Assembly (NCBI GenBank): GCA_016212295.1
Contig: JACRGO010000080.1
Coordinates: forward strand, 1-17,005
DNA length: 17,005 nt
Direction: 5' to 3'
Source: Nitrospinota bacterium
GTDB taxonomy: Bacteria; Nitrospinota; Nitrospinia; JACRGO01
This document shows positions 1-15,683 of the stretch, piece by piece. Every line of letters begins with the position of its first letter. The stretch's first letter is position 1. The notes beneath the pieces are model-generated. The model searched no databases. It was given only the letters and a program-made list of their open reading frames with translations, and was not told the DNA's origin. A program made the position numbers and the translations under genes.

Positions 1-133
1 AATATTTGAAATTTCAAAAAGGCGGCAAAAAGTGAAACGTTTTATGGCAAAAAGAGATAAATTTTCGGAATAGGCGAGTAAGTATCTCCAACCGTGAAAA
101 AACATTGCGCCTTTTTTGAAAATTTCAAATATT
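1..133. repeat. MITE-like element with terminal inverted repeats
   Basis: Positions 1-27 and about 104-133 are inverted copies of each other apart from three or four single-base indels or mismatches (left arm begins AATATTTGAAATTT, right arm ends AAATTTCAAATATT). The interior has no credible reading frame. It carries a 34-base block (54-87) that recurs with 5 mismatches at 3711-3744, so this is a dispersed family and not a single hairpin. The left arm starts at the window edge, so the true left end may lie outside. Up to position 249 I see no gene; a possible tail resembling the second copy (CCACATTAACCCTT) lies near 176-189. Confidence 0.55.
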
Positions 134-249
134 TTTGGCTATATTTTCAGCTAAGGCATCGCAAATGGCGCTGCGCCACATTAACCCTTGAAGAAGTCCT
201 TTTCACGAGTATGCCGCTCAACATCCTGTGTAAAGCTATCCCCCCTACG

Positions 250-477
250 TTAGTCTAAATCAGCCCCTTCTTTTTTTGCTTCAAGGACCTCCCTGTGTAT
301 CTCTTCTATCTTTTTATCTCCCCAGAACTTCTTGATTTCCTGAACAGAATCTCCCTTGCCCCTTTCAAAACTCACTATAAATCTCGTTGCATCCGCTTCC
401 CCCATATTATCTACAAGCAGATTCCACCCCTTCCTTACTATCTCATTCATTGCGACAGATTCTTCGTTCTTTATCAC
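250..477 (-). CDS. Small antitoxin-like protein, partner of the adjacent PIN toxin
   Basis: A 75-residue soluble protein with no recognisable catalytic motif; charged and probably helical, with a conserved-looking core (KGWNLLVDNMGEADATRFI) followed by a lysine/glutamate-rich tail. I chose the GTG start at 475-477 because a perfect AAGGAGGT SD site (483-490) lies 5 bases upstream; an internal ATG at 448-450 would give 66 residues but has no such site. The upstream PIN gene stops inside this SD site, so the two are translationally linked. Small proteins of this type are often found beside PIN-domain toxins, and I infer an antitoxin role. The toxin-first order is the reverse of the usual vapBC arrangement. 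The toxin gene is frameshifted, so this partner may now be an orphan. Confidence 0.6.
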   Translation of the reverse strand: MIKNEESVAMNEIVRKGWNLLVDNMGEADATRFIVSFERGKGDSVQEIKKFWGDKKIEEIHREVLEAKKEGADLD

Positions 478-488
478 GTCAGACCTCC

Positions 489-903
489 TTACTCCTCTGC
501 AACCTTTTCCATGCATCCCGCACCTTTTGCATCTGAGGTTACCTCGTCATCACATGTCAGAAAATATGTTGCTCCACCGGCCATGGCCGAGGCCAAGTGA
601 AGCGCATCCCTGTCTTTAATCCCACACCGATCACGAATAACAATACCAAGCTTCAATATTTCCTCTTTTTTCCTCAACCCTCTTTTTAGAAAGAGCAAGG
701 TATCTTTCCACCTCAGTTCTTTTAAGCGGGCTCAATATCTTTGTTATCTCATATTGCAATACGTCTGATGAGAGCGTGAGAAACCGGCCCTTCCTGACAC
801 CGTCTAGTATAACTTCAAAAGCATCGGTCTCTTCCCTAATCCTATCCTGCGCCTGGTTGTCAAATGGTCTGCAATAAACGTTAGTATCGAGGTAAATAAT
901 CAT
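489..903 (-). pseudogene. PIN-domain ribonuclease toxin, broken by a one-base frameshift
   Basis: Two overlapping frames together make one complete PIN protein of about 137 residues. The first frame (903 to about 670) gives the N-terminal half, with the first acidic residue in YLDTN (D6) and a second near E52. The second frame (about 670 to 489) gives the C-terminal half, with RDALHLA and the FLTCDD motif. Removing one base from a run of six T (666-671 on the plus strand; A on the coding strand) joins them without loss. All four acidic positions expected of the PIN fold are therefore present but split. The ATG at 901-903 lies 30 bases after the methyltransferase stop and its SD site is weak. 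This may be a real inactivating mutation, a phase-variable tract or a sequencing error in a homopolymer. Confidence 0.8.
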
Positions 904-933
904 GTGCTCTTTATCTTCTCGTTTCGATTTATT

Positions 934-3159
934 CTACCTGATTATCTTCAAGCTCTCTATTCCTCTTGCATCAATGATCTTAACGGCAACGGCCTTGCCT
1001 GGTTTAAACGGCAGGGAAACCGTCCCTCCATAGGACTCAATCTTTTCTTCATCAATTACCGCCTTCAGGTTCTTTGCCAGAGTAGTCCAACCTTCCTTTG
1101 CGCCTGCCATCGGGAAGAATACCTGAGATGGGAACAGGCTCCGGCCATCGTAGTCTGTATCCACCATCCACATGGCAATGTCGTTTTTGCCGCCGCTTTC
1201 CACCGTTCCGGTCTTTGGGTTGTAGTAATCAAAGCCGAGAACTTCAACTTGATATAAATCATCCTGTTCGCTTCGCTTACTTTCCCCCTTTGTCAAAGGG
1301 GGATTGAGGGGGATTTTGTTTCCGCCTCCGCCTGTAAATACCTTGTGCCGCTTAATGGTTCAACCCTTGCGAACTCAATCAGCTTGCCTCCTTTTGCCCT
1401 CACGCCCGCGCGAAGCAGCTCATCCCGCCAATTGCTTTGGCGAAGGGTTTCACCGCTGCGGGCAACGGAGGTATCCATCGACTGTCCGGTTTCCGAAGAG
1501 ACGGGTTTCAAATCCGCCCCCACGTCTTCAAACGACCGTGCCACCGGCGAAGGAACGGCCTCCACCGTAAAAGGCCCCGTTACCCTTTGCCGCTTGTTGT
1601 CAATAAAAGGCTGGTCGTACAATGTCTCCTGTCCGGGAGGCTCATTGTTGGCAATGCTTTTGAGGGTTACATGCGGAACGGTCTTGTATTTAAAGCCGCT
1701 TCCAACGCCTTCATGCGGATGGGCAAGCTCATAATAATCAAACACAGCCGTCATCAACCGTTGCCTGGCAAGGGTTACGGCAACCCTTGAAGTATCGCAG
1801 GTGATCCACCTCCTGCCCCAGTTCTCAGCCACGGCTGCCGTAGTGCCGCTGCCACAGGTTATATCTAAAACAAGGTCGCCGGGGTCGGTGGTCATGAGGA
1901 GGCAACGTTAAACTGCGTTAGTAGATGTTTGAACTACATATATTTTCCCTTCGATTCTATTCTGCACTCCACCAATGTCAGTCCACAAATTAGTAATTGG
2001 GAAAACCGGGAAGTCATCCAGAAATCTCAAAAATCGGGGAGAATTTCCTTCAATTACAACGCGCTTTGCTTTTAACAAGCGATTCAACCCTTCAACCGAA
2101 GTTTTCCAATGCATTCCCTTGGGAGGGGAATAACTTTTCTCTTCATAAATAAATTCAGAATCCGCCTCAGTTGGTCCCTGTGATGTGAGTGAATCAACGC
2201 TAACAAGTTTTTCTTCTGGCCACCAATTTTTTGGAATTGAACTTACATTCTTAACGGGTTTATATTTCGTTGCTCCTTCTTCCCCTGCAATTTTTTCTCT
2301 GTGTAATTGCCGATACTTTATTTTTTCAATATCTTTTGCATACCAAACAATATAATCACCAGCACGACTTAATGTTTTTGATGGAAAACCACTTGTAGTT
2401 GAAAAACTTATTAAGCTTACGAAATTCTCGTTCCCAAAAACCTCGTCCATCAAATTCCTTACCAGATGCACATTCTCATCACTGATCTGCACAAACACGC
2501 TCCCGCTTTCATGCAGCAGTTCGCGGGCTAGGAGCAAGCGGTCACGCAGGTAGGTGAGGTAGCTGTGTATCCCAAGCTCCCACGTATCCCGAAACGCCTT
2601 TATCATCTCCGGCTCGGCTGTCAGGTCTTCGTCCTTCCCGTCCTTCACATCCCGCTTGTTCACAAAGGGTTGAAAGTTGCTGCCATACTTAATCCCATAA
2701 GGCGGGTCGAAATACATCATCTGCACCTTACCGCCCATGCCTTCTTTTTCAAGCAGTGAATTCATCACCAGCAGGCTGTCACCGGCGACAAGGCGATTGC
2801 TCCAGTTCTCTTTGTGCTTGTAAAACTCTATGGCCTCACGCAGAGGTTTCTTCTCAGTCTCAAACAAGCTCATTTGCGCCATGCCGGGCGAAACCGAGGC
2901 ATCTTTCTTGACCGTCTCAATAATTCTGCGCGGGTCTATGCGCTCATGCACATGCAGACTCACGGTAGGAACCTCAAAACTGGTATGCTCCGCCTTCCCG
3001 GCCCATTGCAGTTGCGGGTCAAGGTGCGGGTCGTATTGGTATTCCTTTCTCTTCAGCCCGCCATTGTCGGTATGCGCATCCAGGTGGATTGTTCAACCGC
3101 ACCTTGTCCTTGTGCTCATACTGCTCAATGGGTTTTTTATTCTCTTTTTTTCTTGCCAT
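934..3159 (-). pseudogene. Type III-style site-specific DNA methyltransferase (mod), multiply broken
   Basis: Remnant of a large adenine-type DNA methyltransferase. The start at 3159 follows an AAGGTGAG SD site; the N-terminus contains EQYEHKDKVRLNNPP. The catalytic DPPY is at about 2697-2708 (YFDPPYG), and the SAM-binding motif I, DITCGSGTT, is at about 1845-1865, where the family usually has DPTCGSG. The C-terminus (DTDYDGRSLFP, QVFFPMAG) ends at TAG 934-936. Three lesions are visible. First, right after NNPP (about 3082) the frame shifts by one and several family-conserved residues are missing. Second, an in-frame TAA at 1908-1910 replaces one codon just before RCLLMTTDPGD. Third, around 1280-1316 a palindromic repeat replaces roughly 100 codons of the family's usual C-terminal part and changes frame. 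The usual family length is around 850-900 residues; only about 740 codons of DNA remain. Its restriction partner is not adjacent. Confidence 0.88.
1280..1316. repeat. REP-like palindromic repeat inserted in the mod pseudogene
   Basis: The core is a perfect 10-bp inverted repeat, TCCCCCTTTG / CAAAGGGGGA (1283-1292 and 1294-1303), with a one-base centre, followed by a second G5 block (GAGGGGGATTTT). Read through on the minus strand it adds the tail KSPSIPL and a stop to the methyltransferase fragment. This KSPSIPL-type tail recurs in proteins of many repeat-rich bacteria. A related palindrome lies at 16925-16962. Confidence 0.75.
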
Positions 3160-3182
3160 GTCTCACCTTATGTATTCTAATT

Positions 3183-3210
3183 GTTATATGCATCTATAGC
3201 TAACTCTCAA
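3183..3210 (-). promoter_or_regulatory. Candidate sigma-70 promoter of the mod pseudogene
   Basis: On the minus strand TTGAGA (3205-3210) and TATAAC (3183-3188) are 16 bases apart. They would start transcription about 15-20 bases before the mod start codon at 3159, leaving room for its SD site. Spacing is one base short of ideal, so this is only a candidate. Confidence 0.4.
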
Positions 3211-3252
3211 TTTAAATCCGCGCAGCTATTTGCGATCAGATGCAAACAAAGA

Positions 3253-3477
3253 TTAGGCAAGCAGTTGTAAAATAAAACCGACTCCCATCAACGCAAGACC
3301 GCAGCGGAAAAGGCCAGGATAAAGGAAGGACGCGAGATAAATGATTCGACCGGTTTCATCCTCTTGATTAGCCTCTCCGGGATTCTTGCCGAATGAGAAC
3401 GCCACAAAAATAGTGCCGACCAGGTTAAAAATCAAGCCGACGTGCGCCAAAGTGATTATTTTGAGGATATCATCCAT
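3253..3477 (-). CDS. Small hypothetical membrane protein with two membrane segments
   Basis: A 74-residue protein of no family that I recognise. It has two hydrophobic stretches, roughly residues 8-28 (ITLAHVGLIFNLVGTIFVAF) and 47-72 (region ending GVGFILQLLA), joined by a charged loop (GKNPGEANQEDETGR). That pattern predicts a two-pass inner-membrane hairpin. I chose the ATG at 3475-3477, with TTGGAG six bases upstream; a TTG four codons earlier is the alternative start. It stands alone between an intact vapBC and the mod promoter, with about 500 bases of repeat-rich DNA upstream. Hydropathy looks protein-like, which argues for a real gene, but nothing in the sequence shows its function. Confidence 0.55.
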   Translation of the reverse strand: MDDILKIITLAHVGLIFNLVGTIFVAFSFGKNPGEANQEDETGRIIYLASFLYPGLFRCGLALMGVGFILQLLA

Positions 3478-3986
3478 CGGAATCTCCAATACGCATATCG
3501 TCCAACGCCAAGGTAGCCATTGTTATACAATAAACCTAACCAAAGATATTTGAAATTTATTGCTATTAAGACACAAAGAGACGAAGGAAAAAACTTTATA
3601 AACCATTTTCCTCTAAGGAAGGCAGGAAGATTCTTTATAGTTTTTTGCTTTTCCGGTTTTTTCCTGGTTTCCTGCATTCCTTAGCTAAAAAGTTTTAATT
3701 TAAAATATGAGAGATAAATTTTCAGAATGAACGGGTAAGTATCTAAAAGACGCAGGGGAAAATAGGACTGAATTATTCCCCTAACACTTTGCGACATTGG
3801 CCACTTTACCCTTAACCGTCCCTGCGAAACCTCTCCCGCAGCCCTTCTATATTCCTGGTCCAAATAAACCGGAACTGGGGAAACTAAAAATCAAAATGCA
3901 ACCGGTAATTTTTTTTCCGTAACCGCTCCCTTGTGCCTCGTTTACATAAAAAAATTGAAAATATTATCTTGCCTTTAATTCAGACC
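3478..3986. other. Repeat-rich spacer without a convincing gene
   Basis: About 500 bases between the small membrane protein and vapC. It holds a 13-base copy of the left-edge inverted-repeat sequence (3546-3558), word arrays of the type 'acacaaagagacgaagg' (about 3567-3588) and 'ccggttttttcctggtttcc' (about 3651-3682), the 34-base block shared with position 54 (3711-3744), and a 7-bp hairpin (AGGGGAA 3754-3760 / TTCCCCT 3776-3782) without a following T run. The frames open here begin with non-ATG codons and lack SD sites, so I do not call them genes. Confidence 0.6.
3711..3744. repeat. Second copy of the 34-base dispersed block
   Basis: Matches 54-87 at 29 of 34 positions by eye, beginning GAGATAAATTTTC and ending GTAAGTATCT in both copies. 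Further downstream both copies have a CCACxTTxACCCTT-like tail (about 176 and 3798), which suggests a larger diverged element with internal indels. A weaker echo of its end (GAATAAGTACCT) is found at 13877-13888. Confidence 0.55.
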
Positions 3987-4391
3987 TTATGGCTTCAAGA
4001 CCCAGTTTTCTACTTTCAACCCTTTTACTCTCTTGAAATGCCTTTCATTGTTTGTCACAAGAGTTGCTTTGTAATCAAGCGCACAGGCGGCTATAAATAG
4101 ATCGGCATCATCGATAATCTTTCCATCTTTTTCCAGCATCGCTTTCAGCTTTCCAAAAATGCCGCATATTGATTCGTTCGAATCCATTAAACTCAGTTTT
4201 TTCTTTAAGATGTCTGCATTAGCAAGGTTGTGCTCCACTTGCTTGGATTTGTAGGCTCCGTAATATAGCTCACTCAAGGTGACGAAGGAAATGAATATTT
4301 TCGAAAGCCCAACCTTCAAAGCCTTTTTCTCAATATCTTCATTTCCTTTAAGCCAGTATATACAGGTATCAGTATCCAGCAGATAGTTCAT
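3987..4391 (-). CDS. vapC: VapC-family PIN-domain toxin ribonuclease
   Basis: A 134-residue PIN-domain protein, the normal length of VapC toxins, which cleave RNA (often tRNA or rRNA) with metal ions when freed from VapB. The acidic active-site residues are visible: D6 in LLDTD, E41 in LSELYYG, D95 and D97 in DDADLFIAA, followed by the TNNERHF motif near residue 113 that is typical of VapC. Its ATG overlaps the TGA of the upstream antitoxin gene by four bases (ATGA), so the two are translationally coupled. No lesion is seen, so the toxin should be functional. About 500 bases of repeat-rich DNA follow its stop. Confidence 0.93.
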   Translation of the reverse strand: MNYLLDTDTCIYWLKGNEDIEKKALKVGLSKIFISFVTLSELYYGAYKSKQVEHNLANADILKKKLSLMDSNESICGIFGKLKAMLEKDGKIIDDADLFIAACALDYKATLVTNNERHFKRVKGLKVENWVLKP

Positions 4392-4645
4392 AGTTCAACT
4401 TTTCTACCGCCTAATCCAGTCCTGCGCAAGCGGATATCCCTGATTATTTCCACAGCCGAGCGTTCATCCTTCCAAATACCGCAAAGACCGCTTCCTTTGG
4501 CTTCTCTTTTTTTATGTGAAGCCTTTACAGAAAGCACACTTTCCTTTAATGAATGGATGATCTTCACAACCTGCGGAAGCACCTCCCCAGGCATTTCCCG
4601 AACGTCCTTAAGTATCATCTTTTCATATTCAATCCTTGTCTCCAT
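4388..4645 (-). CDS. vapB: VapB-like antitoxin
   Basis: An 85-residue partner of the downstream VapC. The C-terminal part GIWKDERSAVEIIRDIR is the toxin-binding tail seen in many VapB proteins. The N-terminal half (ILKDVREMPGEVLPQVVKII) is helical and resembles small DUF2281-like antitoxins; I do not see a clear AbrB or RHH DNA-binding signature. I chose the ATG at 4643-4645 because GGAGG lies five bases upstream. A start 14 codons earlier would fall inside the mod remnant and lacks an SD site. The only good promoter nearby is the one at 4846-4874 in front of a truncated RHH antitoxin, so I infer that vapBC is transcribed from there. Confidence 0.85.
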   Translation of the reverse strand: METRIEYEKMILKDVREMPGEVLPQVVKIIHSLKESVLSVKASHKKREAKGSGLCGIWKDERSAVEIIRDIRLRRTGLGGRKVEL

Positions 4646-4659
4646 AATTTCCTCCGTAT

Positions 4660-4739
4660 CTCCATTAGGACTCAATTTTTTCTTCATTAATTACCGCACT
4701 CAGGTTCTTTGCCAGAGTAGTTCAGCCCTCCTTTGCGCG
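4660..4739 (-). pseudogene. 80-bp second copy of the mod 3' region
   Basis: This stretch matches 1026-1103 inside the mod pseudogene with about six substitutions and one indel (near 90% by eye). Its reading frame still spells AKEG-stop-TTLAKNL followed by NEEKIES, where the full gene has AKEGWTTLAKNL. The tryptophan codon has become TGA. It ends just before the vapB SD site. It must come from another mod homologue or a duplication, now reduced to one fragment. Confidence 0.85.
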
Positions 4740-4755
4740 CTCAAGTATCCTATTG

Positions 4756-4818
4756 TCAGTCCTTAGCGGTTAGAGGGGGGACGGATATAGTCATGACAGA
4801 CCTTTGTTGTGACGGCAT
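4756..4818 (-). pseudogene. Truncated ribbon-helix-helix antitoxin gene (5' stump)
   Basis: A 20-codon frame with an excellent SD site (AAGGAGGT, 4823-4830, four bases before the ATG at 4816-4818) and a promoter in front. The encoded MTISVPP is the usual opening beta strand of RHH (CopG-type) antitoxins, which goes on for 40-70 more residues in intact proteins. Here a TGA comes right after the strand and the DNA then runs into the mod remnant. Length and homology to that one strand are all that support this, so the family call is tentative. The start signals look intact, so it may now serve as a leader for vapBC. Confidence 0.55.
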
Positions 4819-4845
4819 ACGCACCTCCTTGTATTATTTTTTATT

Positions 4846-4874
4846 ACAGTATCAAGAATAGTATTGTCTGTCAA
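4846..4874 (-). promoter_or_regulatory. Candidate promoter for the RHH stump and vapBC
   Basis: On the minus strand a perfect TTGACA (4869-4874) is followed after 17 bases by TACTGT (4846-4851), a weak -10 with three of six consensus positions. An AT-rich stretch and the AAGGAGGT site of the RHH stump follow. No other promoter-like sequence of similar quality lies between here and vapB. Confidence 0.45.
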
Positions 4875-4896
4875 AAAAAGGGTTTCTTTCCTTTGT

Positions 4897-7818
4897 TCAC
4901 ATCAAAAAATTCGAGGCGCGCGCGTACACATCCTTTCGCGCGTTCAGGTAGTATTTCAGAAGCCGGCTTTTTTGAAAAACCTTGTGGGGATAGGTGGAGT
5001 GGCCGTTGTAGAGTTTCAGGCTTTTATCGAGGTCAACTACAATCCGCTTGGTCTTTTCGCCTGAGGGGTCCTTTTCAAAATAGGAGAACCGCTTCATAAG
5101 CGTGGCGAAATGAAAGGTCGCCATGAACGTGGAAAGCGTGATGTGGTCTTCCAGCCGCCGGATTCTCCCGCTCATTTTCAAGCCTGCGTCCTTGAGGTCC
5201 CTTTCTATGAGCTCGCGCGTCGGCTCGAAAAGCTGAAAGGGGCCCACTGACCTGGACCCGTCGCCGAAGATATTCATGAAATAGGTTTCATGGTGGGCGA
5301 TGGTGACCATGCTAGTCAGGGGAACGCCAAGAATTCTGGCGCAGTGGAAGATGTCCTCTGACAGCATCCTGGCATACTCCGGCAGATCATCCGGGATTTG
5401 CATTCCGAGGCTTTTGGAGAATATGGAATATTTTTCCACTATATAGGGAGAGATGGATTTCACGAATTCCTTAAAATTCATTTCCTCCAGTTCGCTGATC
5501 GGCAAATTTTGGCCTTCATGGAATATTTTTACTTCCTTGTCCCTGGGAAAAGCCGGGCTGGACGTCTCCATTGCTATAATGAATTTCGCCGCCTCCTTCG
5601 GCGCCACCCCCAGGTCCAGAAGGTTCAAATAGAGCCTGCTGAAGAAACCGGAATATTCGGGATTCATCCTCTTCTTTATTTCCTCGAACAACTTGAAAGC
5701 CTCCGAGCTTTGCGCGCCCGGCGCCCGTCCATTCTTGTTGATGAGAATGGGACCGTTATCGACGTTAGTCCAGTGAAGGGAGAAATTTTCAAAGACTGGA
5801 GAGAAAATCTCCCACTGTTTTTTATGGTCCAATTTGATATCCGGGGAGGCTGTGATTTTCTCTGGACCATACATCAAGGCGTGAATGATTTTATTAAGCT
5901 GGAGGTCCGTTTGGGGTTGCTCTTCCCTGTAGAGTTCCTGGAGCAAGGGTTCGCTTTTCAGATCGTCCGCGATCTTTTTTTCATCCACATGCGCAACCGG
6001 ATTGGAATAATAACCCAAACCCATCATGGGAATAAGCACGGCCAGGACCCGCCTGGATATAGGAGGTTTTCCGGTTTGTGGATAATCCAGCCTCCTGGCC
6101 TTGTCCATCCTGCGTTTTCTTCTTCTCCGCCATTGAAAAATCTTGAACATAAGGAAACTCCTTTTCCCTTCTTCCGGGGGAGGGGCTTGGCCTGAATCGC
6201 TTTCAGAGGCAGGGGCTTCCGTGGTCCGCGCCGGGACTTCAGAGAAAATGACCTTGGATAAATTCGTCAATTCAAACTCTCCGACCTCTTTTTCCTGATC
6301 GTAATTCCGGTCCAGGAGCCAGGAAATAGCGTTTCTGTCCGCGAGAGGTGAGAGGCAACGGTCAAAGTCCGCGTCTCTGCCTGCCGCGTCCAGCAAGGTC
6401 ACCGGCTTGACAGGCACATGGAGGATGTCCTTTTCCTTGAAGCCTTTCAGGGCTTCATCCCACTTGAGGGCGTCTTTCCGCGATTTTTTCAAAAGGCCCT
6501 CCATTTTTTCCAAAGCAGAGAGGTCCTGCTCCAACTGCTGCGACAGCCGGCGGTTTTCGACGATAAACCGGTCCGCTACTACGAGCGCGCCAGCCAACTC
6601 AAGGAGCGCCTTCAAGGTTTTAGCGGAAGCGGCCTCGATTTTCGACCGGTTGGATTTGGCGATTTTAGAGAGTGTGATGAAATAAAAAGATTTTTCCGCC
6701 TGGAGGTCCAGAAGCGCGTTTAAAAGGGCCTGGTATTCCTCAACTTGATGATTTTGTTTTTCCTTGATGGCCTTGAATGCCTTAATGAGCTTTCCCGCGT
6801 TTTTCCGTTCCTTCAGCAGGGCCTCCCTGTTTTTGCCTGTCCGTTCCTTGCACAACTGGACCAGAATGGGGGCCTCCGGCAGCCCGCGCAGCGTCTCGTC
6901 AATTTCCGCGGATTCCCGTCTCCATCTGGAAATGCGGTCCTTGAAGTCCTCCACCTTTTTAAGGTATCTCTTGTTGTTTTCCCTTTTTTGGAGAATGGCC
7001 TCCCTTGCCCTCTCGAGCCGTTTCTCCTCCATGGAAATTTTAACGAGGACCTCACTCAATTTTTCCCATATCGGCTCCATCCTTAAGAACCGTTCGTCTA
7101 TCTTGATGAGGTCCCCTTCCAAGGGGGAAAATTCCCGCCGGATAGCGCTCCCCTTCTCCAGCAAGGTTTTCTCTACTCTTTCATGGATGCCCCTGATTTC
7201 CTCAATCGCGCTTTTTTCCCTGGTCTTTTCAAACACCAGATCGCAGGCCCTCAGGACCTTTTCCCCAAGCGCGATAAATTGTTTTTTATATTTTGACGCC
7301 TTGGATTTTTTTTCGGAGTCATTGGAGCAGGAGCGAATTGCCTCCTTCAACTGAAGAAGGTCCTTCTTCCCCTTGTCCCTGGCGGCTTTCAGGTCCTCCA
7401 GCCTGGCCTCTATCCTTTCTCCGTAGGACATAAGAAGGTCCAGCCGGATTTTTTTCCCGCGCCATAAGGGCGGCCCGTCCTTTAACTCGCGGGCGATGCC
7501 GCCTTCCACCCTGGACCTCAGGCGGGCCTTGAATCCGCAAGCCCCTTCCCCCTCTTCCCCGCCGCCTTCAAACAGGCCCCTTAAAAAATCCAGTTCCTCC
7601 CTGGAGGCCAGGGGCAAGGCCGCGTTGAAAAAACAGAAGAACTCCTTGAGCCTGATGGCCTGATCCAGCCTTGCGCCGCCTGATTTCCATTCCTTCAGGC
7701 ACCTGAAAATAAAGTCCCAGGAAACCGGATGGGTCTTCGCATGGAGAAGTCCGGCATGGCCCTCCAATAGGGATGCGATATCGTCGCTTGAAAGGAATTT
7801 TTTAATTTCCAGGCTCAT
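4897..7818 (-). CDS. 973-residue coiled-coil membrane protein with lytic-transglycosylase-like C-terminus
   Basis: I do not recognise the full-length protein. Residues 1-100 are helical. About 110-490 are rich in K/E/L heptads (long coiled coil). About 530-552 are Pro/Glu/Ser-rich, followed by a strongly basic stretch (QWRRRRKRR, near 562-572) and one hydrophobic segment (RRVLAVLIPMMGLGYY, about 588-604). The remaining 370 residues end in an SLT/lysozyme-like domain: a predicted catalytic Glu844 in AHHETYF, then SVGPFQLFEPT, and YNGHSTYP from Y937, matching the E, GxxQ and YN motifs of lytic transglycosylases. Positive charges before the single segment predict a cytoplasmic coiled coil and a periplasmic enzyme domain. 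The ATG overlaps the asd TGA (ATGA), so translation is coupled to asd. A peptidoglycan-cleaving role is inference from motifs; the coiled coil may be a scaffold. The hydrophobic segment is short, so the topology is less certain. Confidence 0.8.
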   Translation of the reverse strand: MSLEIKKFLSSDDIASLLEGHAGLLHAKTHPVSWDFIFRCLKEWKSGGARLDQAIRLKEFFCFFNAALPLASREELDFLRGLFEGGGEEGEGACGFKARLRSRVEGGIARELKDGPPLWRGKKIRLDLLMSYGERIEARLEDLKAARDKGKKDLLQLKEAIRSCSNDSEKKSKASKYKKQFIALGEKVLRACDLVFEKTREKSAIEEIRGIHERVEKTLLEKGSAIRREFSPLEGDLIKIDERFLRMEPIWEKLSEVLVKISMEEKRLERAREAILQKRENNKRYLKKVEDFKDRISRWRRESAEIDETLRGLPEAPILVQLCKERTGKNREALLKERKNAGKLIKAFKAIKEKQNHQVEEYQALLNALLDLQAEKSFYFITLSKIAKSNRSKIEAASAKTLKALLELAGALVVADRFIVENRRLSQQLEQDLSALEKMEGLLKKSRKDALKWDEALKGFKEKDILHVPVKPVTLLDAAGRDADFDRCLSPLADRNAISWLLDRNYDQEKEVGEFELTNLSKVIFSEVPARTTEAPASESDSGQAPPPEEGKRSFLMFKIFQWRRRRKRRMDKARRLDYPQTGKPPISRRVLAVLIPMMGLGYYSNPVAHVDEKKIADDLKSEPLLQELYREEQPQTDLQLNKIIHALMYGPEKITASPDIKLDHKKQWEIFSPVFENFSLHWTNVDNGPILINKNGRAPGAQSSEAFKLFEEIKKRMNPEYSGFFSRLYLNLLDLGVAPKEAAKFIIAMETSSPAFPRDKEVKIFHEGQNLPISELEEMNFKEFVKSISPYIVEKYSIFSKSLGMQIPDDLPEYARMLSEDIFHCARILGVPLTSMVTIAHHETYFMNIFGDGSRSVGPFQLFEPTRELIERDLKDAGLKMSGRIRRLEDHITLSTFMATFHFATLMKRFSYFEKDPSGEKTKRIVVDLDKSLKLYNGHSTYPHKVFQKSRLLKYYLNARKDVYARASNFLM

Positions 7819-8822
7819 ATCAATAATTCAGCGATCTGGACGGCGTTCAGGGTCGCCCCCTTTCTGATGTTGTCGGACACGATCCACATCTGCAAGCCGT
7901 TCTTTATGGAGATGTCTTCCCTGATGCGGCCAACGAACACATCGTCCTTCCCCTCCGCCAGGATCGGCAAGGGGTAGATGTTTCTGGACGGATCATCCAT
8001 CACCGTCACTCCTGGGGCGCGCGAAAGAATCTCCCTCGCCTCATCCGCAGTGAGTTTTTCCTCGGTTTCAATTGACACCGACTCGGAGTGCCCTGCGAAC
8101 ACCGGCACGCGCACCGTTGTCGGGGCCACGGCTATGGACTGGTCGCCCATTATCTTCCTAGTCTCATTGACCATCTTCATCTCTTCCTTGGTGTATCCGT
8201 TTGGCTCGAACACGTCGATATGCGGAAGGCAATTGAATGCTATGGGATGCGGATACACAAGGCATTCGGCCTTTTCCCCGTTGAGCGCGTTCCCGCTCTG
8301 CCGCCGCAGCTCCTCAATCGCCTTCTTGCCGGTCCCTGACACGGCCTGGTATGTTGAGACCACGATGCGCTTGATCCTCGCGCGGTCATGAAGCGGCTTA
8401 AGGGCGACCACCATCTGAATGGTGGAGCAGTTAGGATTGGCGATGATTCCCTTGTGCTTGGGAATGTCTCCTGGATTTACTTCAGGGACCACGAGGGGCG
8501 TCCCGGGGTCCATGCGGAAGGCCGAGCTGTTGTCAATAACCACCGCCCCGGATTCCACCGCTGCCGGAGCGAACTCCTTGCTCCTTGAGGCCCCGGCGGA
8601 AAAAAGGGCTATGTCCACGCCCTGGAAGGAGTCTTTATTAAGGATACTTACCTTCTCTTCCTTCCCGTTAAAACGGAGGGTCGCCCCATCGGACCGCTCG
8701 GAGGCCAGGAGCGTTATCCTGTCAACCGGAAACTTTCGCTGCTCCAGGACCTTTATCATCTCGTTGCCCACAGCGCCGGTTGCTCCGACGACCGCCACAT
8801 TGTATTTTTCTTTTTTCTTCAT
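7815..8822 (-). CDS. asd: Aspartate-semialdehyde dehydrogenase
   Basis: A 335-residue enzyme, normal for the family, that reduces aspartyl phosphate to aspartate semialdehyde with NADPH. This is the branch point to diaminopimelate and lysine, threonine and methionine. Visible signatures are the nucleotide-binding GATGAVG (residues 13-19), the active-site cysteine Cys132 in NPNCSTIQM, the substrate-binding region STYQAVSGTG (156-165), and RVPVFAGHS with His245. The ATG at 8820-8822 has GTGAGGAAAT just upstream. It is separated from leuB by 429 bases of repeats, so it probably has its own promoter, although I see only weak candidates. The 3' end overlaps the start of the large transglycosylase-like gene. 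Confidence 0.97.
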   Translation of the reverse strand: MKKKEKYNVAVVGATGAVGNEMIKVLEQRKFPVDRITLLASERSDGATLRFNGKEEKVSILNKDSFQGVDIALFSAGASRSKEFAPAAVESGAVVIDNSSAFRMDPGTPLVVPEVNPGDIPKHKGIIANPNCSTIQMVVALKPLHDRARIKRIVVSTYQAVSGTGKKAIEELRRQSGNALNGEKAECLVYPHPIAFNCLPHIDVFEPNGYTKEEMKMVNETRKIMGDQSIAVAPTTVRVPVFAGHSESVSIETEEKLTADEAREILSRAPGVTVMDDPSRNIYPLPILAEGKDDVFVGRIREDISIKNGLQMWIVSDNIRKGATLNAVQIAELLI

Positions 8823-8834
8823 ATTTCCTCACTC

Positions 8835-9213
8835 GTATCAATTTAGATTCTAAAAAAATAATTCAATTGGGAATAGTCATTGGTCAATAGTCATTTGTCA
8901 TTGATAAGCAGGAAGACGGCCTAGTTGCTAATAAGTTCCGCCCTAAGTGCGATAAGTTCAACCAGGCACAGAGTAGGCCGGGAAAAGCATTAGTCGCCGT
9001 AAGGCTTAGAGTTTTTGCTTTCCGGGTCTCCCCGGAAAACAAAAGCATCTTAAACTCCGCGCTAATCCGTCTCATCCGCGTTATCCGCGTTCTATCTTTA
9101 ATTTAAATCTGTTCTTTTTTTCTCTCCGCGACCTTCGCGGCCTCCGCGGTAAAAACTGTATCAATTCAGATTTAAAAAAAATATAATTCGTGAATATTCG
9201 TGTAAATTCGTGG
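8835..9213. repeat. Composite repeat block filling the leuB-asd gap
   Basis: The 429-base gap holds no gene but is layered with repeats. About 30 bases beginning GTATCAATT occur twice in the same orientation (8835-8864 and 9158-9189) with few differences. Between and beside them are degenerate word arrays: GTCATT words (8873-8903), ATCCGCGTT words (9063-9096), CTCCGCG words (9124-9150) and ATTCGTG words (9185-9213). The CTCCGCG array is flanked by inverted TTTAAATCTG (9102-9111) and CAGATTTAAA (9167-9176). CGGCCTA (8917-8923) and TAGGCCG (8974-8980) form another inverted pair. The open frame at 8884-9075 runs through these repeats and is not a gene. Confidence 0.65.
9013..9044 (-). repeat. 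14-bp stem hairpin between leuB and asd
   Basis: TTTTGCTTTCCGGG (9013-9026) and CCCGGAAAACAAAA (9031-9044) pair with a four-base loop. The only imperfect pair becomes G-U in RNA read from the minus strand, the direction of leuB and asd transcription, but is an A-C mismatch in the plus-strand RNA. No U run follows, so it is not a standard terminator; it may be an RNA-stabilising or processing stem. Confidence 0.55.
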
Positions 9214-9251
9214 TGGAATTATTTTTTTTTAAAACATCTAAACCGCTGCCC

Positions 9252-10331
9252 TCACCCCAGATTTTCCACTACCTTGTCCCCCATTTCAGCGGTCCCGACC
9301 GCGCCGCATCCCGGGGCCATTATATCAGGGGTCCTGTACCCCTTTTTCAAGGCACTGGAAACGGCGCGGTCAATGGCCTCCGCCGCCGCCAGCAGGCCAA
9401 AGGAATATTTAAGCATCATGCCGACGGAAAGAATCGTGGCCAGGGGATTGGCCTTCCCTTGCCCGGCTATGTCCGGGGCGCTTCCATGCACCGGTTCGTA
9501 CATGCCGTTTTTCAATCCAATGCTGGCCGAGGGGAGCATCCCTATGGAGCCGGTCAGCATGGCCGCCTCGTCGCTCAATATGTCGCCGAACATGTTAGTG
9601 GTCAGGATCACGTCGAATTGCTTCGGATTTCGTATAAGCTGCATGGCGCAATTGTCAACGTACATGTGGCTGAGCGCCACGTCCTGGAAGTCCTTGTGGA
9701 CCTTGGTGACCACTCTTCTCCATAGTTCGGTGCATTCCAGCACGTTCGCCTTGTCAATCGAGGCCACTTTTTTTCCCCTCTTGCGGGCGATTTCAAACGC
9801 CACCTTGGCGATCCTTTCGATCTCGCCGGTCGTGTAGACCAGGGTGTTGACCCCGCGCTCCGTCCCGTCCTCCAGCATGGTGATTCCCTTGGGCTTTCCG
9901 AAGTATATCCCTCCTGTCAATTCCCGCACCACCAGGAGATCAGTCCCTTCCACCACTTCTCTTTTCAAGGTGGAGGCGTCCGCCAGCTCCGGAAATACCC
10001 TGGCCGGGCGCAGGTTAGCGAACAGGCCAAGCTCGGAGCGAAGCCCCAGAAGGGCCCTCTCCGGCCTTACGGAATAATCCAACGGCTCCCACTTCGGACC
10101 CCCTACAGCGCCAAGAAGCACGGCAGCGGCCTCTTTCGCCATCCGCAGGGTTTCCGGGGGAAGCGGATTGCCGGTCGCGTCATACGCCGCGCCTCCCACA
10201 AGACCATTCTTCAGGTTGTAAGTGAACCCGTGTTTTTTTGAAACCGCGTCCAGGACCTTCAGGCCTTCCTTCACTACCTCGGCCCCGATGCCGTCCCCTG
10301 GCAGGGCCAGGATATCGCCTATATTTTTCAT
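9252..10331 (-). CDS. leuB: 3-Isopropylmalate dehydrogenase
   Basis: A 359-residue enzyme of normal length that oxidatively decarboxylates 3-isopropylmalate to 2-ketoisocaproate with NAD+ in leucine synthesis. Seen are LPGDGIG at the N-terminus (residues 10-16), the LeuB-specific [10 protein letters not shown] (136-145), the catalytic lysine K194 in DKANVLE, the metal-binding aspartates D226 (YVDN), D250 and D254 ([10 protein letters not shown]), and the NAD-binding HGSAPDIAG (282-290). It begins two bases after the leuD stop, a tight operon. The SD site, AGAGG within the leuD end, is somewhat distant from the ATG, which suggests coupling. The repeat-rich gap follows. Confidence 0.98.
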
Positions 10332-10333
10332 TT

Positions 10334-10825
10334 TCAGCCGAACCTCTTTTGAATGTGTTTCATCAGTCCGCCGTCTTCGATCAGTTCCATCATGAAGGGC
10401 GGGATAGGGGTGGTTTTATATGACTCCTTGCGGGTGAGATTGGAGATGACGCCTTTGCCGGGATCAACCTCAATCTCGTCCCCGGCCTGGATTTTCTCCG
10501 AGGCGGCCTCGCTCTCGAATATGGGCAATCCCACGTTGAAGGAATTCCGGTAAAAAATCCGCGCGAAGGACTTGGCTATGACGCACGAGACCCCGGCCGC
10601 CTTGAGGGATATCGGGGCGTGTTCCCTGGAAGAGCCGCAGCCGAAATTCTTTCCGGCCACGATCACGTCGCCGGACGACATCTTGCTCATGAACTCAGGG
10701 TCGGCGTCCTCCATGCAATGCTTCGCGAGTTCCGCCGGATCGGAGGTGTTGAGATATCTTGCCGGGATAATGGCGTCGGTGTCCACGTCCGCGCCGAATT
10801 TCCAGGCCTTTCCTTTATGGGCCAT
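10334..10825 (-). CDS. leuD: 3-Isopropylmalate dehydratase small subunit
   Basis: The swivel subunit of the aconitase-type enzyme that isomerises 2- to 3-isopropylmalate. At 163 residues it is the short (archaeal/thermophile-type) LeuD and not the roughly 200-residue enterobacterial form. Motifs are [12 protein letters not shown] (residues 13-24) and [14 protein letters not shown] (58-71). I chose the ATG at 10823-10825, with AAAGGA 9 bases upstream; the upstream in-frame extension of 17 codons has no SD site and is not conserved-looking. It needs the iron-sulfur large subunit LeuC, which is not beside it: the upstream neighbour is an unrelated metalloprotease. Short LeuD proteins can also serve homoaconitase-type reactions, but the leuB neighbour favours leucine synthesis. 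Confidence 0.95.
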
Positions 10826-10874
10826 TTTTTTTTCCTTTAATAATGAGGGCTGTTTGAATTTGGAGGGAACTACC

Positions 10875-10904
10875 ATTATGTCAAATGCGCATGGAGGGGT
10901 TCAA
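10875..10904 (-). promoter_or_regulatory. Candidate promoter of leuD-leuB
   Basis: On the minus strand TTGAAC (10899-10904) and CATAAT (10875-10880) are 18 bases apart, about 50 bases before the leuD start. The -10 matches five of six consensus positions. No leader peptide rich in leucine codons and no T-box were evident in the 100-base gap. Confidence 0.35.
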
Positions 10905-10925
10905 GCCCTATAGCCCGATGTTCCA

Positions 10926-12011
10926 TCAATTCAATAAATTGATTTTCCCGCTCTTTCCGGCCCGGACCCCCTTATGCACCACCAGTGTCTTTCCGCTGGC
11001 CTTGCCGGAGGCATAGGCGTCCTCACAGCTTCGTGACCAGGCGTATGTGGCGCGCCGGAGCTTGGGATTTCTCCGGCGGAAAAATTTCATAAGGTCCGGG
11101 TCTCCTTTCCATACCAGTTTATCCAGGGGGCCAGTTGCGGCGCGTGAGTCCAGCTTTTCGTAAAAGCCGGTAAGGAGGCCGTAGATGAAGGTCCTGCGGT
11201 GTTTGTCGCCCGCCAACCCCTTTTTCTTCCTGTATTCCCGCCAAAGCGACTCCGAGACATTGTTCAAATAGTCATGCACGTATTCCGCCATCTCCACGTT
11301 TTCCGGTTTGCCGTATATCTCAAGAACCCGTCCCGTGCTATTCGTATGCTGGTTGTACCCGAAGACCCATATCGTTTCCACGAAGAAGAACTTGCCGATA
11401 ATGGTCCCGATCAGGGATTTCACCGGATTTTTTCTTCCCACCTCGCCGATCTGCTTGTGGATGTAATCCCCCTTGGCGCCGGCCTCCAATAAGGAGATGT
11501 TGTGTTTCAATAAAAGGTCGTGGGCCTTTTCCATGGCTGATTCCGCCTCATGCCGGTTGGCGCTTTGGGCCAGGGCCAAGAGCTTTTGGATCTTGTCCAG
11601 GGCCCGCCGGTTTTCAGGCTCCACGGCGCGGCCGTTTATTCGTCTCTCCACCCAGGGCCGGGGCTCGCCTGAGGCCGTTGGATCGATCCCGTGCTCCCGG
11701 CAAATCCTCCTGAACGCCTCGCCGTGGGGAAGGGCGTCCCGGATTCCAATCGCTTCCTCCACGAATTGGTGGGCCATTTCATGGTAAAGGACCTCCAGCA
11801 CCAGCTCCCACGAATGATTGCGGACCAGGAAATCGCTGATGAAAAGGGACCTGTGATGCCCCCCCTTCCAAAATCCCAATTGGCTGTTAGAACTCATGAG
11901 TCCGATGTTGGGGAGGCGCATCTTGTCCTGGAAATACGTGTAATTTGCGTTTTTCCAATCTTCCCTCAACTGCCGGACCCACGCTGATTTTAGTTGATTA
12001 TCGATATCCAT
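10926..12011 (-). CDS. SprT-like zinc metalloprotease with DUF2786 segment
   Basis: A 361-residue soluble protein. Residues 1-110 form a SprT-like domain: HEMAH (77-81) is the HExxH zinc site, and His96 in LPHGEAF is the likely third ligand. About residues 139-178 match DUF2786 (KIQKLLALAQSANRHEAESAMEKAH), a short helical module often found with SprT-like domains. The rest is basic, with no motif that I know. SprT/Spartan-type proteases degrade DNA-protein crosslinks in some organisms; whether this one does is inference. The ATG at 12009-12011 has CAGGAA upstream. It lies 57 bases after the small membrane protein gene and about 100 before leuD, on the same strand. Confidence 0.85.
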   Translation of the reverse strand: MDIDNQLKSAWVRQLREDWKNANYTYFQDKMRLPNIGLMSSNSQLGFWKGGHHRSLFISDFLVRNHSWELVLEVLYHEMAHQFVEEAIGIRDALPHGEAFRRICREHGIDPTASGEPRPWVERRINGRAVEPENRRALDKIQKLLALAQSANRHEAESAMEKAHDLLLKHNISLLEAGAKGDYIHKQIGEVGRKNPVKSLIGTIIGKFFFVETIWVFGYNQHTNSTGRVLEIYGKPENVEMAEYVHDYLNNVSESLWREYRKKKGLAGDKHRRTFIYGLLTGFYEKLDSRAATGPLDKLVWKGDPDLMKFFRRRNPKLRRATYAWSRSCEDAYASGKASGKTLVVHKGVRAGKSGKINLLN

Positions 12012-12068
12012 GATTTCCTGTGTCTTTTTTTAGTAAATGCCCCTGTTCCTAAATGCCAAAAATTCTAC

Positions 12069-12437
12069 TCATTTTAAATTTCCAGGAACCAATAGAAAAT
12101 TAATCTCCCTCAATAGCTCTGGCCTTGGGTGATTATCAAATGCCTCCTCCAATCTTTGGGCATATATTGCTTCCTTTTCTGTCCCCTTATGCTTCTTAAA
12201 ATCCATGAGTTTACGGGCGGTATTTTCGTCCAGGATAAGAGTTTTCCTGAGGTAGTTTATTCTTTTAGTTTTGACCCTGGCCTCCATGCTTTTGTCTGCC
12301 GGCCCTCCTGTCAGGTTTTTCTCCAGGCAGTACCTCTCTTCCTGATGAATAAAAAAGAGAATGGTCACGCCCATGGCCAAAAAGGTGGCCGTAAAAATTG
12401 CCACGGCCAAAATTACTTTTTTACCCAGTGTCTTCAT
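12069..12437 (-). CDS. Small single-pass membrane protein, unknown function
   Basis: A 122-residue protein with one N-terminal membrane segment (about residues 8-30, VILAVAIFTATFLAMGV onwards) preceded by lysines, so the 90-residue helical, charged tail should be periplasmic. No family is recognised. The ATG (12435-12437) shares its A with the TAA of the upstream polytopic protein gene (TAATG), so it is translationally coupled and probably works with that protein. The frame stays open upstream across the end of that gene, but this is an out-of-frame shadow. Overlap, hydropathy and the clean stop argue for a real gene. Confidence 0.75.
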   Translation of the reverse strand: MKTLGKKVILAVAIFTATFLAMGVTILFFIHQEERYCLEKNLTGGPADKSMEARVKTKRINYLRKTLILDENTARKLMDFKKHKGTEKEAIYAQRLEEAFDNHPRPELLREINFLLVPGNLK

Positions 12438-13825
12438 TACGCCATCCCAATCAGGTACAAAAATAGTTTCCATTTGTCCAAAAATATCTGGTCCCACCCA
12501 AGAGTATGGTCGCGGGCAACTCTTCCAAAGGCCGATTGCAAAAGGAACAAAATTTCCCAGGCGGCCATCAAAATGGAAATAAGAAAAGCCGCGTTGCTCC
12601 AAGCGCTGTATTTGGAAATAACACTGTAGAAACAAGAAAGGCCAATGATTAAAACGGCCGTGGATTGAACTATATACCGATAGCCGAAGGTGTCCCCCAT
12701 TTTCCATTCATAAGAGGAGGTGAACCACAAAATTATAATCAAGGAAAAAATGACGCTTTGCTTCAATCCGGGCTCTTTGGGACTCCAGAAGAAGAGTCCT
12801 GCAAAGGAAAAAATCAGGATAGGCGAACATGAGACAATCCCCGCGTAGCTGGAAAAAAAAAGAACACCCAAGGAAGGCGAGGCCAGATTAAAGGAGGCGC
12901 CTTCCTGGAGATATGATATCCCGAAAGGGTTCCCATAGTAATAATTCCACGCCAGCATTTGTGGCGCCAGCGCGATAAAGAAGGCCGCAAGAAAGAAGAC
13001 GCCCCCTTTGAACCAGCCACGGACGCCTTTTCCCCTGTCCTCAACTGCGTTTTTCAGGGCGTAGCCGTATTCAAAAAGCGCCGTCAACAGGTAAGCCCCG
13101 CTGTCCAGGCGGCAGATAATCATTAAACCCGATAGGAATCCAAGCACCATCCACTGCGAGCCCCTCTTCCGGCCCCATGTTTGTATTTGATAATAAAGAT
13201 ATAGGGTCACCGTGAACATGGAGGGTACATGGGCCATGGAGGGAAGGATCAGAAGATAAAAAATGAAGGGGGAGCCAAGCCAGACAAAGATGGCCCCCAT
13301 AAAGGCGTATTTCGGGGGGGCATATCGCGACGCAAGCTTCAAGGACAAAAAGATTCCGGCGAGACCGTAAACCATGGTCCCGAAGCAAGCTGACGCCTGG
13401 AAGGGAAAATCGAACCCATTGACGGGATAAAAGGTCCCCATGCTGTTCAGCATTAATGTCCACAGATGGCCCATGGAATAGAAGGGAAGCCACAGGATGG
13501 CGGGTCCGATGACCCAGTGAACAGTAGGGATTCCATGGGGATTTAGGACAAAATTATTTTCCAAGTCCCCGCCAAAATATGCCATCAATTCTGACAAAAT
13601 ATTCAGATTGCCGTCGAAGTATAGGGAGCGAAGCTGGACAAAATAAGCGAAAGTATCGATCCCGTGAAATTCAAATGGCGCGAATACAATTTTCCCCCTG
13701 AAAAAATAACGCATATAGAGCAGGAAAAGAAAAACAAGGAAAAGAAGGAGGTAATAAATCGGGCGGGGTGATTCCACGGATGGAAGTTTTTCACTATTTA
13801 AAAACGCGGTATTTGGGGGCGCCAT
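12437..13825 (-). CDS. Polytopic membrane protein, GT-C glycosyltransferase-like
   Basis: A 462-residue protein with about ten hydrophobic segments, starting with residues 23-40 (YYLLLFLVFLFLLYM). The first external loop contains HGIDTFAYFVQLRSLYFDGNLN, with Asp57 and Asp71. GT-C enzymes (ArnT, PMT, GT39-like) carry a catalytic acidic residue in this loop, using polyprenyl-phosphate sugars on the outer side of the inner membrane. The fit to GT-C is by topology and this loop only, so the sugar and acceptor are unknown. It lies between a membrane-anchored SGNH hydrolase and a small coupled membrane protein, which suggests an envelope polymer or glycolipid modification set. The ATG at 13823-13825 has only a weak SD-like TTGGA. 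Confidence 0.65.
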   Translation of the reverse strand: MAPPNTAFLNSEKLPSVESPRPIYYLLLFLVFLFLLYMRYFFRGKIVFAPFEFHGIDTFAYFVQLRSLYFDGNLNILSELMAYFGGDLENNFVLNPHGIPTVHWVIGPAILWLPFYSMGHLWTLMLNSMGTFYPVNGFDFPFQASACFGTMVYGLAGIFLSLKLASRYAPPKYAFMGAIFVWLGSPFIFYLLILPSMAHVPSMFTVTLYLYYQIQTWGRKRGSQWMVLGFLSGLMIICRLDSGAYLLTALFEYGYALKNAVEDRGKGVRGWFKGGVFFLAAFFIALAPQMLAWNYYYGNPFGISYLQEGASFNLASPSLGVLFFSSYAGIVSCSPILIFSFAGLFFWSPKEPGLKQSVIFSLIIILWFTSSYEWKMGDTFGYRYIVQSTAVLIIGLSCFYSVISKYSAWSNAAFLISILMAAWEILFLLQSAFGRVARDHTLGWDQIFLDKWKLFLYLIGMA

Positions 13826-13894
13826 AAATCCAATTCAAGTTTGAAGTGACTAAAGCATCAGAACTAAAATTGTGGTGAATAAGTACCTAATGGT

Positions 13895-15562
13895 TCATCT
13901 CATCATGGCCTTCTTGTTCCTGAGCAAAAACTTTTTATGGGCAGTCATTAACTGGGAAATATATTCGGCCCATCCATACCGTAAGAAGACAGCGATATCC
14001 TTCTTGGAAAGCCCCGTGGGTTTGGTGGCGGCCTTCATTAATTCAGGGGATGGAAAAAGATCATTTTCCAGCACTTTCGGGTCCCTGAATGGAACATCCT
14101 TTTCCATCTCTATATAACACCCTTCATCTCCTCCCAAGGATTTCTGTGTATATTTAAACACATATTTCCGCTGGCCAGCCGTTTCCATTTCCTTCCCGGA
14201 CGCAGGACCGCCGGCGAATCCCCGCGGCCCGCTGCTGAATAGATATGCGTTGTCTTGAAAAACAATGGTTTCCCATTTTTTCTTTTCCCCTGTTTCCGGA
14301 TCAAAATCCTTTTTTTCATATTCCAGGAATTTTCCTTTTTTATCAAATACTTTAGTGGAAACGGATTTATTGTTTTTGTTGAAGATCGTCCTCTGAAAAT
14401 GATAATTGCCAGCGTCTTTCCAAACCTTCAGCTCCAAATCGCCGGGCTCTTTTGGACCGCCTTTTTTATTGTAAACAAGAGGGCCGTTCCCCTCTTCGAT
14501 CCGGGAAATGCCTCCATCAAGTTCAGGGGCAAACCACTTGCCCAGAAGAAGTTCATCCGTAGCATAGGCGCCGCTGAAAGCGTGGAGGCGTTTGTATTGT
14601 TTTAAAGGTTCAAGCCTTTTAAAAAGGGCCTGGGCCGCTATTTCCGCTCCCTTTTCATTTAAATGCCAGTCCTCGGGTGAAACCCACAAGCTGGACGCTT
14701 TTTCCCCCTTGAATCCCGGCTCAAAAAGATCCACGAATGCTATGTCCCGCTTTTCGCAATACTCTCTCAACATATTATGCGGACGTGAAAATGGATACTC
14801 ATCGCCCAGCTTGTTTATAACCGGGACAACCGACAGCATGAGCTTTACATTTTTTATTTCGCAAGCTATATGGATGGCGTCAATGAATATCTTCTCCATT
14901 TCCCATCCGCGGGAGTCGTATATCCTTAAAGTGCATTCCTCGAAAGACGGCTTTTTACCGGTCTTTTCCAGAAGCCGGTTTACTCTTGCCTTAAGCAATT
15001 TATAAAGTTCCATTTTATTCACAAAGGCATGAAGCCCTTTCCAGGAGGAAGGGACCAAGTCCCGGTCCTCGCTGTCGCAGGAATAAAGCCCTGGCGTGGG
15101 AACATCGTTGTGGTAGTAGTTGAGGAGAACCATGTCAGGGTTAAAATCAAAGCCCTTTTCATATAGATAATACATGGCGTTATCAGTCCCCCATCCAGGC
15201 TTTGCGGCGTTTATCAATTCAAATCGAACGCCTTCCGCCCCCTTGTTTAAATAAGCCTCTAGCTTCTTGGGAAAGGTATTGCCCAGTTCCTCGATCCCTT
15301 GGCCGAATGTCATGGAGTCGCCAAGAACCAAAATCCGGAAAACCTTTTCCGGTTTTTCAAGGCTATATTCGTAATCCCGTAAACCGCGCGAATTCAACTT
15401 TACGTCCTTTTGGGACCATTCCCGGGCCGGCTTTTTGCCTCTCGCGATAATCCGGAAAAGCGCTTCGGAAACGGCCATGAAAAATATCACGACTGAAATC
15501 AGTATTGATATATTTATAGCGAAAGAGTATTTTTTCTTTTTATGAGAAATGGGTTTGGACAT
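13895..15562 (-). CDS. Membrane-anchored SGNH/GDSL-family hydrolase
   Basis: A 555-residue protein. An N-terminal membrane anchor (about residues 13-35, after KKKK) is followed by a periplasmic SGNH domain: block I GDSMTFGQG with Ser83, block II around residues 118-128 (NAAKPGWGTDN), block III HND with Asn152, and block V DWHLNEKG with Asp298 and His300 as the catalytic pair. These enzymes add or remove acyl groups on glycans or lipids. The last 240 residues (about 315-555) are a charged domain of unknown function. I chose the ATG at 15560-15562, with GGGGAG five bases upstream; an ATG 12 codons earlier starts almost at the predicted transcription start. It is the first gene of a leftward run with the GT-C-like protein. 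Confidence 0.87.
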   Translation of the reverse strand: MSKPISHKKKKYSFAINISILISVVIFFMAVSEALFRIIARGKKPAREWSQKDVKLNSRGLRDYEYSLEKPEKVFRILVLGDSMTFGQGIEELGNTFPKKLEAYLNKGAEGVRFELINAAKPGWGTDNAMYYLYEKGFDFNPDMVLLNYYHNDVPTPGLYSCDSEDRDLVPSSWKGLHAFVNKMELYKLLKARVNRLLEKTGKKPSFEECTLRIYDSRGWEMEKIFIDAIHIACEIKNVKLMLSVVPVINKLGDEYPFSRPHNMLREYCEKRDIAFVDLFEPGFKGEKASSLWVSPEDWHLNEKGAEIAAQALFKRLEPLKQYKRLHAFSGAYATDELLLGKWFAPELDGGISRIEEGNGPLVYNKKGGPKEPGDLELKVWKDAGNYHFQRTIFNKNNKSVSTKVFDKKGKFLEYEKKDFDPETGEKKKWETIVFQDNAYLFSSGPRGFAGGPASGKEMETAGQRKYVFKYTQKSLGGDEGCYIEMEKDVPFRDPKVLENDLFPSPELMKAATKPTGLSKKDIAVFLRYGWAEYISQLMTAHKKFLLRNKKAMMR

Positions 15563-15606
15563 CGGTTCTCCCCGGCCCTTATTTTTTGCGGTTAACATAA
15601 TTTGCT

Positions 15607-15635
15607 ATAATAAAGGCCAATATTTTTTTTGTCAA
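15607..15635 (-). promoter_or_regulatory. Near-consensus sigma-70 promoter of the SGNH gene
   Basis: On the minus strand a perfect TTGACA (15630-15635) and TATTAT (15607-15612, five of six) are separated by exactly 17 bases. Transcription would begin near 15600, giving a leader of about 38 bases that holds the GGGGAG SD site. This is the best promoter in the window and sets the start of the SGNH run. Confidence 0.75.
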
Positions 15636-15683
15636 ACCGTTGATTGAAGGGCGGAGGAATGAGTCATGTGCCATGAGCGTTTT

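Follow-up and report, generated by a model that had tools for sequence, protein, structure and literature searches.

The window analyzed here is a stretch of 17,005 nucleotides from a Nitrospinota bacterium (assembly GCA_016212295.1, contig JACRGO010000080.1, positions 1 to 17,005). According to open-frame analysis, its positions 4897..7818 hold, on the minus strand, a reading frame of 973 codons with an ATG start, whose product, P0001, is laid out as a coiled coil, a membrane segment and a lytic-transglycosylase-like domain. All features of P0001 below are given as window positions on the minus strand. Directly upstream on the same strand lies asd (7815..8822), the gene for aspartate-semialdehyde dehydrogenase, identified by the Pfam models Semialdhyde_dhC (2.7e-58) and Semialdhyde_dh (9.4e-36). 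The start codon of the P0001 gene (7818-7816) and the stop codon of asd (7817-7815) share the four base pairs ATGA at 7818-7815. A relative of 963 amino acids in another species of the genus (genome G001) is the nearest found; it matches P0001 end to end (38% identity, E 6e-193), which is why we regard the gene as real. Its layout is the same, and its gene too comes immediately after asd and shares an ATGA with it. The C-terminus is the most conserved part of the two proteins (52% identity over the last ~204 residues) and contains the shared strings IAH[HQ]ETYFMNI.GD...SVGPFQ and YNG. A preliminary description of this locus, made from the sequence, had reported the overlap with asd, a Pro-rich and an Arg-rich stretch, one hydrophobic segment and the E, GxxQ and YN signatures of transglycosylases, and all of these are present in the DNA and the protein.

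Residues 1-115 (7474..7818) form a helical N-terminal part, for which the full-length model gives low-confidence helices; they share conserved residues with the G001 protein, lack a clear heptad and would be cytoplasmic. They are followed by a rod rich in coiled coil (residues 120-460; 6439..7461). Its periodicity is in the heptad range, with a hydrophobic period of 3.4-3.7 over residues 100-460 (z 6.9 against shuffles), and low-confidence long helices are modelled at 248-311 and 317-388. The coiled coil of the preliminary description is seen over residues 100-460, but with no clear heptad in residues ~1-115 the N-terminal half is not one coiled coil. The full-length AF2 model, computed from two alignment rows, has a pLDDT of 36.5 and is unusable for the rod or the topology.

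Between the rod and the C-terminal domain, the sequence passes through a Pro/acidic linker (residues 530-550; 6169..6231) and an Arg/Lys-rich juxtamembrane stretch (551-590; 6049..6168) into a predicted signal-anchor or transmembrane segment (591-605; 6004..6048), which was located by hydropathy and lies ~383 residues before the C-terminus. The segment has just 15 residues, with a Kyte-Doolittle mean of 1.61 over 15 and 1.23 over 17 positions. Since the hydropathy maximum of P0001 for a single window falls within the coiled coil (404-420), the assignment draws mainly on its conserved position: most Desulfobacterota relatives have a hydrophobic segment ~380-405 residues before the C-terminus. 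The flanks differ in net charge (+14 for residues 551-590 versus -4 for 607-646). Lys and Arg before the segment and acidic residues after it suggest an N-inside orientation.

The lytic-transglycosylase-like domain with its lysozyme fold occupies residues 775-960 (4939..5496) and would be periplasmic. An SLT/lysozyme-like fold had been proposed for it, and a structure prediction around Glu844 had been named beforehand as the check. An AF2 model of residues 612-973, computed from an alignment of 23 family members, does predict a lysozyme-like fold there (pLDDT 70.8, pTM 0.72; residues 705-973 mostly at 70-97). In a VIA-align search with this model, the best 50 matches listed were lytic transglycosylases, GH23-type chitinases, goose lysozymes and other wall-lytic enzymes, one of them being a T7 core-protein entry. 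The scores included Z 11.2 for MltF (4oxv), 11.2 for MltC (4cfo), 10.7 for Slt (5ohu) and 10.6 for MltE (2y8p), and the aligned span covered model residues ~165-349, equivalent to P0001 residues ~776-960. Foldseek likewise placed Slt35, phiKZ gp144 and MltC at the top, with E-values of only ~0.01; these weak values are probably due to the low confidence of the first 93 model residues. A profile-profile comparison points to the same fold: hhalign matched the family profile to ordinary SLT proteins of the same class with a probability of 59%, whereas 100 column shuffles never exceeded 5.1% and the reversed profile reached 0.1%.

In the hhalign register, the putative catalytic acid Glu844 (5287..5289) falls on the catalytic glutamate of the SLT ES motif, Gln862 on the glutamine of GLMQ, and Tyr937-Asn938 on YN. 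The counterpart of GLMQ is GPFQ at residues 859-862 (5233..5244), with P and Q invariant, and the counterpart of the YNAG motif is YNG at 937-939 (5002..5010); YNG and Glu844 are invariant in the enzyme branch described below. The spacing from glutamate to glutamine is 18 in the P0001 family, as it is in 24 of 25 SLTs. The preliminary description had doubted activity because of HHE and GPFQ in place of ES and GLMQ. Both motifs do deviate, but the doubt is weakened by the family signature H[HQ]E[TS]..[FY].N..GD...S.[SG]P[FY]Q, whose H[HQ]E[TS]...[SG]P[FY]Q elements occur with the spacing of 18 in all 24 complete members of the enzyme branch. As judged from these sequences, HHE and GPFQ are hallmarks of the family and not signs of decay.

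Searches of Pfam, NCBIfam and PDB sequences returned no family call for P0001, and no Pfam or NCBIfam model exceeded its cut-off for P0001 or the family. For PF01464 (SLT), P0001 gave no match and was absent among the matches in its own genome; the best relative scored 13.2 bits against a gathering cut-off of 21.3. The MltB-type model PF13406 (SLT_2) did not list P0001 and its cut-off was not reached, its weak contact being with 13 of 23 family members (best E 0.0027). YceG/MltG models had no match to the family in the Pfam and NCBIfam scans, and the PDB sequence search yielded nothing with either the 2-row or the 23-row profile. Because it stays below the cut-offs of both PF01464 and PF13406, we class the domain as a new family of the SLT/lysozyme-like superfamily, outside either model as curated.

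Among 77 Nitrospinota genomes searched, two carry the family, both in one genus, even when the 23-row profile is used. Weak matches of the 2-row profile to other Nitrospinota lacked the motif and were rejected as chance. A 2-row profile (204 C-terminal columns) was run on 395 Desulfobacterota genomes and found 12 strong relatives (E 4e-21 to 2.5e-45) within long open reading frames, complete domains scoring between 1e-37 and 1e-45. In the class of genome G146 (Desulfobacterota), a relative occurs in 42 of 63 genomes, with 19 spanning essentially the whole domain. Layout and neighbourhood were compared for 33 Desulfobacterota loci, several of whose reading frames end at contig edges. The proteins reach ~2,000 residues and consist of an N-terminal part of coiled coil rich in Ala, Arg, Glu and Gln, a hydrophobic segment in most, and the same C-terminal domain. 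The order of coiled coil, membrane segment and enzyme is thus kept across two phyla; conservation of the fusion was one of the checks named in the preliminary description. No similarity was detectable between the N-terminal halves of P0001 and of the Desulfobacterota relatives, so that what these parts have in common, at the level of sequence comparison, is layout and not detectable homology. In the tree, P0001 and the G001 protein form a long separate branch.

The family divides according to its catalytic residues. The full signature, H[HQ]E[TS] ... GD...S.[SG]P[FY]Q with YNG, is present in 24 members including P0001, not counting one fragment (L173) whose contig ends inside the motif. In this enzyme branch, which spans two phyla at ~25-30% identity, Glu, [SG]P[FY]Q and YNG have been conserved. 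Another 11 members, all from Desulfobacterota (L174, L215-L224), have lost PFQ and YNG, and most of them the glutamate as well. They keep the first half of the domain, show the rod and the membrane segment in most cases, and are giant where complete (up to ~2,050 residues). Their next gene is always of the same MetE-like kind, and where the gene after that can be seen it is recN or ftsK (names assigned by inspection of the sequence). No recurring partner gene stands beside the enzyme branch as a whole.

With this degenerate branch in view, tethering may be no less important than cutting, and the branch is the basis of the main rival reading, in which the lysozyme-fold domain would bind glycan strands and thereby fasten a scaffold in the cytoplasm to the wall, cleavage being weak or incidental. 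For the degenerate branch itself such a role would fit the loss of motifs within a retained layout, and the constant MetE-like neighbour suggests that these genes are maintained. For the branch of P0001 it is opposed by the conserved glutamate, [SG]P[FY]Q and YNG, which a pure binder would not need, and we consider a mere tether unlikely as an account of P0001.

The preliminary description had also proposed that P0001 is made in step with asd. Within the genus the ATGA overlap probably does couple translation of P0001 to that of asd, but the arrangement is not general. Only one of the 33 Desulfobacterota loci (L170) has asd nearby, there directly following the family gene on the same strand; 16 of the loci reach 1.5 kb or more to either side. 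In Nitrospinota, 75 of the 77 genomes have no family gene, and most of these do have asd, which then precedes other genes, often one for an unrelated coiled-coil protein of ~760 residues. Co-translation for the sake of the wall precursor, with diaminopimelate supply and wall cutting rising together, could draw on the overlap in both species of the genus, on the independent adjacency in L170 of another phylum and on a murA two genes upstream of the family gene in L169 (name judged by eye). Given the distribution of asd, and since the gene also feeds the synthesis of Met, Thr and Lys, we regard this explanation as improbable. A specific tie of P0001 to diaminopimelate supply is not supported, and the overlap seems to reflect how the operon is arranged locally, not what P0001 functionally depends on.

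Other neighbours of the family, judged by eye, include sensor-like proteins (L168, L171, L210) and, in two Desulfobacterota genomes (L165 and L167), look-alikes of the chromosome partition genes parB/parA, to which the family gene is convergent. The gene for the ~760-residue coiled-coil protein lies 30-160 bp behind asd, and further off in some, in many Nitrospinota families; mtnP-, hemL- and eno-like genes come next, an arrangement found class-wide (L129, L131, L133, L136, L137, L139, L140, L144, L043). This coiled-coil protein is neither the source of the N-terminal half of P0001 nor was it replaced by P0001, because shuffled and reversed controls score equally well against that half and because it is present elsewhere in both genomes of the genus.

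The combination of a long rod, a hydrophobic segment and a muralytic domain recalls phage tail proteins, which, tape measure proteins among them, may be equipped with lysin domains (PMC6116005). The statement in the preliminary description that no described protein has such a layout was therefore too strong, as tape measure proteins also join a rod to a muralytic domain. P0001 might accordingly be a remnant or relative of a tape measure protein, and some predicted phage structures, one annotated as tail tape measure, match its domain. P0001 differs from tape measure proteins in its context and in its sequence: no phage gene was recognised in the window, three family members used as tblastn queries had no match in 50,697 phage records, no relative was found in IMG/VR, and the match in PHROG was short and chance-like, being to one 64-position model and outside the active site. 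Housekeeping neighbours (asd, leu genes, murA, parAB) and the class-wide presence of the family are further arguments against a phage origin, which we consider highly improbable.

We posit that P0001 belongs to a new family of lytic transglycosylases and is an active enzyme, bitopic in the inner membrane (N-inside, C-outside) and placed by its cytoplasmic rod, and we hold this reading to be the probable one, with some reserve. The data show the gene, its conserved layout, the fold as predicted, the conserved catalytic signature and, by position, the membrane segment; catalysis, topology, oligomerisation and the partner are inferred. P0001 would cross the inner membrane once, at residues 591-605, with the lysozyme-fold domain in the periplasm, where Glu844 would cleave the MurNAc-GlcNAc bond near the membrane. 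On the cytoplasmic side, the first ~550 residues would make up a rod, coiled coil for the most part, which oligomerises, attaches to an internal scaffold or to a division or morphogenesis partner, or does both. The rod would thereby keep the enzyme close to the membrane, and the wall would be cut only where the partner is. Counting against this reading are the membrane segment, which is short for a single pass, and the sister branch, which has the same layout yet no catalytic motifs; as that branch kept the layout after motif loss, the core function may be something other than catalysis. More tentatively, and with a little less than even confidence, we propose that P0001 represents a new family, as yet without a name, of wall hydrolases that are bitopic and occur in Desulfobacterota and in a single genus of Nitrospinota. 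In these proteins a periplasmic lytic transglycosylase would be positioned by a cytoplasmic rod, whose length ranges from ~500 to far more than 1,000 residues. With a catalytically dead sister branch that keeps the architecture, the family could be a transmembrane tether on which cutting is tunable.

P0001 resembles family 1 lytic transglycosylases and GH23-like SLT proteins (MltE, MltC, MltF, Slt70; PF01464, PF13406) in the predicted fold at ~776-960, the glutamate, the glutamine at +18 and YN in register. It differs from them in falling below the Pfam cut-offs and in having a signature of its own, and, whereas they are lipoproteins or soluble proteins, its enzyme domain is fused with a membrane segment and an extended coiled coil. 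Its nearest functional analogue is MltG/YceG, including AgmT of Myxococcus, in which one helix in the inner membrane carries a lytic transglycosylase in the periplasm; AgmT ties a cell-internal machine to the wall (PMC11444678). In outline P0001 would work alike, as a predicted inner-membrane enzyme acting outside. However, the single helix of AgmT lies at residues 4-25 (PMC11444678), so that AgmT has no long cytoplasmic rod, while P0001 would have such a rod and has no YceG match and a catalytic domain that matches the SLT/goose-lysozyme type. EzrA-type bitopic proteins have one membrane segment, and their extended helical rod in the cytoplasm binds a scaffold (PMC8563077). The predicted layout of P0001 is similar in these two elements; for EzrA no periplasmic enzyme is described (PMC8563077). 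In a literature search of incomplete coverage, no description of the layout of P0001 was found. The enzyme fold itself is known; what is new here are the family and the architecture.

It is not settled how cells restrict wall-cutting enzymes to their proper sites, a task usually done by separate adaptor proteins. In P0001, enzyme and cytoplasmic rod are parts of one polypeptide, and internal structures would decide the site of wall cutting. The family is spread through much of one Desulfobacterota class, including an apparent pseudoenzyme branch, with neither a Pfam nor an NCBIfam model. One polypeptide, a conserved family, a pseudoenzyme branch and the lack of an existing family model together open the idea that a scaffold in the cytoplasm directs cutting in the periplasm to tests by single point mutants and by truncation of the rod.

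Some other genes of the window, all on the minus strand, deserve mention. Just downstream of the P0001 gene, a PIN-domain protein and a small overlapping upstream open reading frame (3987-4687) likely form a toxin-antitoxin pair; the PIN-domain gene is missing at the matching place in G001, where a different gene is found. An N6/N4 DNA methylase at 1293-2963 is seemingly split, with 1908-2963 corresponding to the N-terminal and 1293-1895 to the C-terminal part of the model, and is probably broken or frameshifted. At 10926-12011, a single protein joins an SprT-like domain, DUF2786 and DUF7168.
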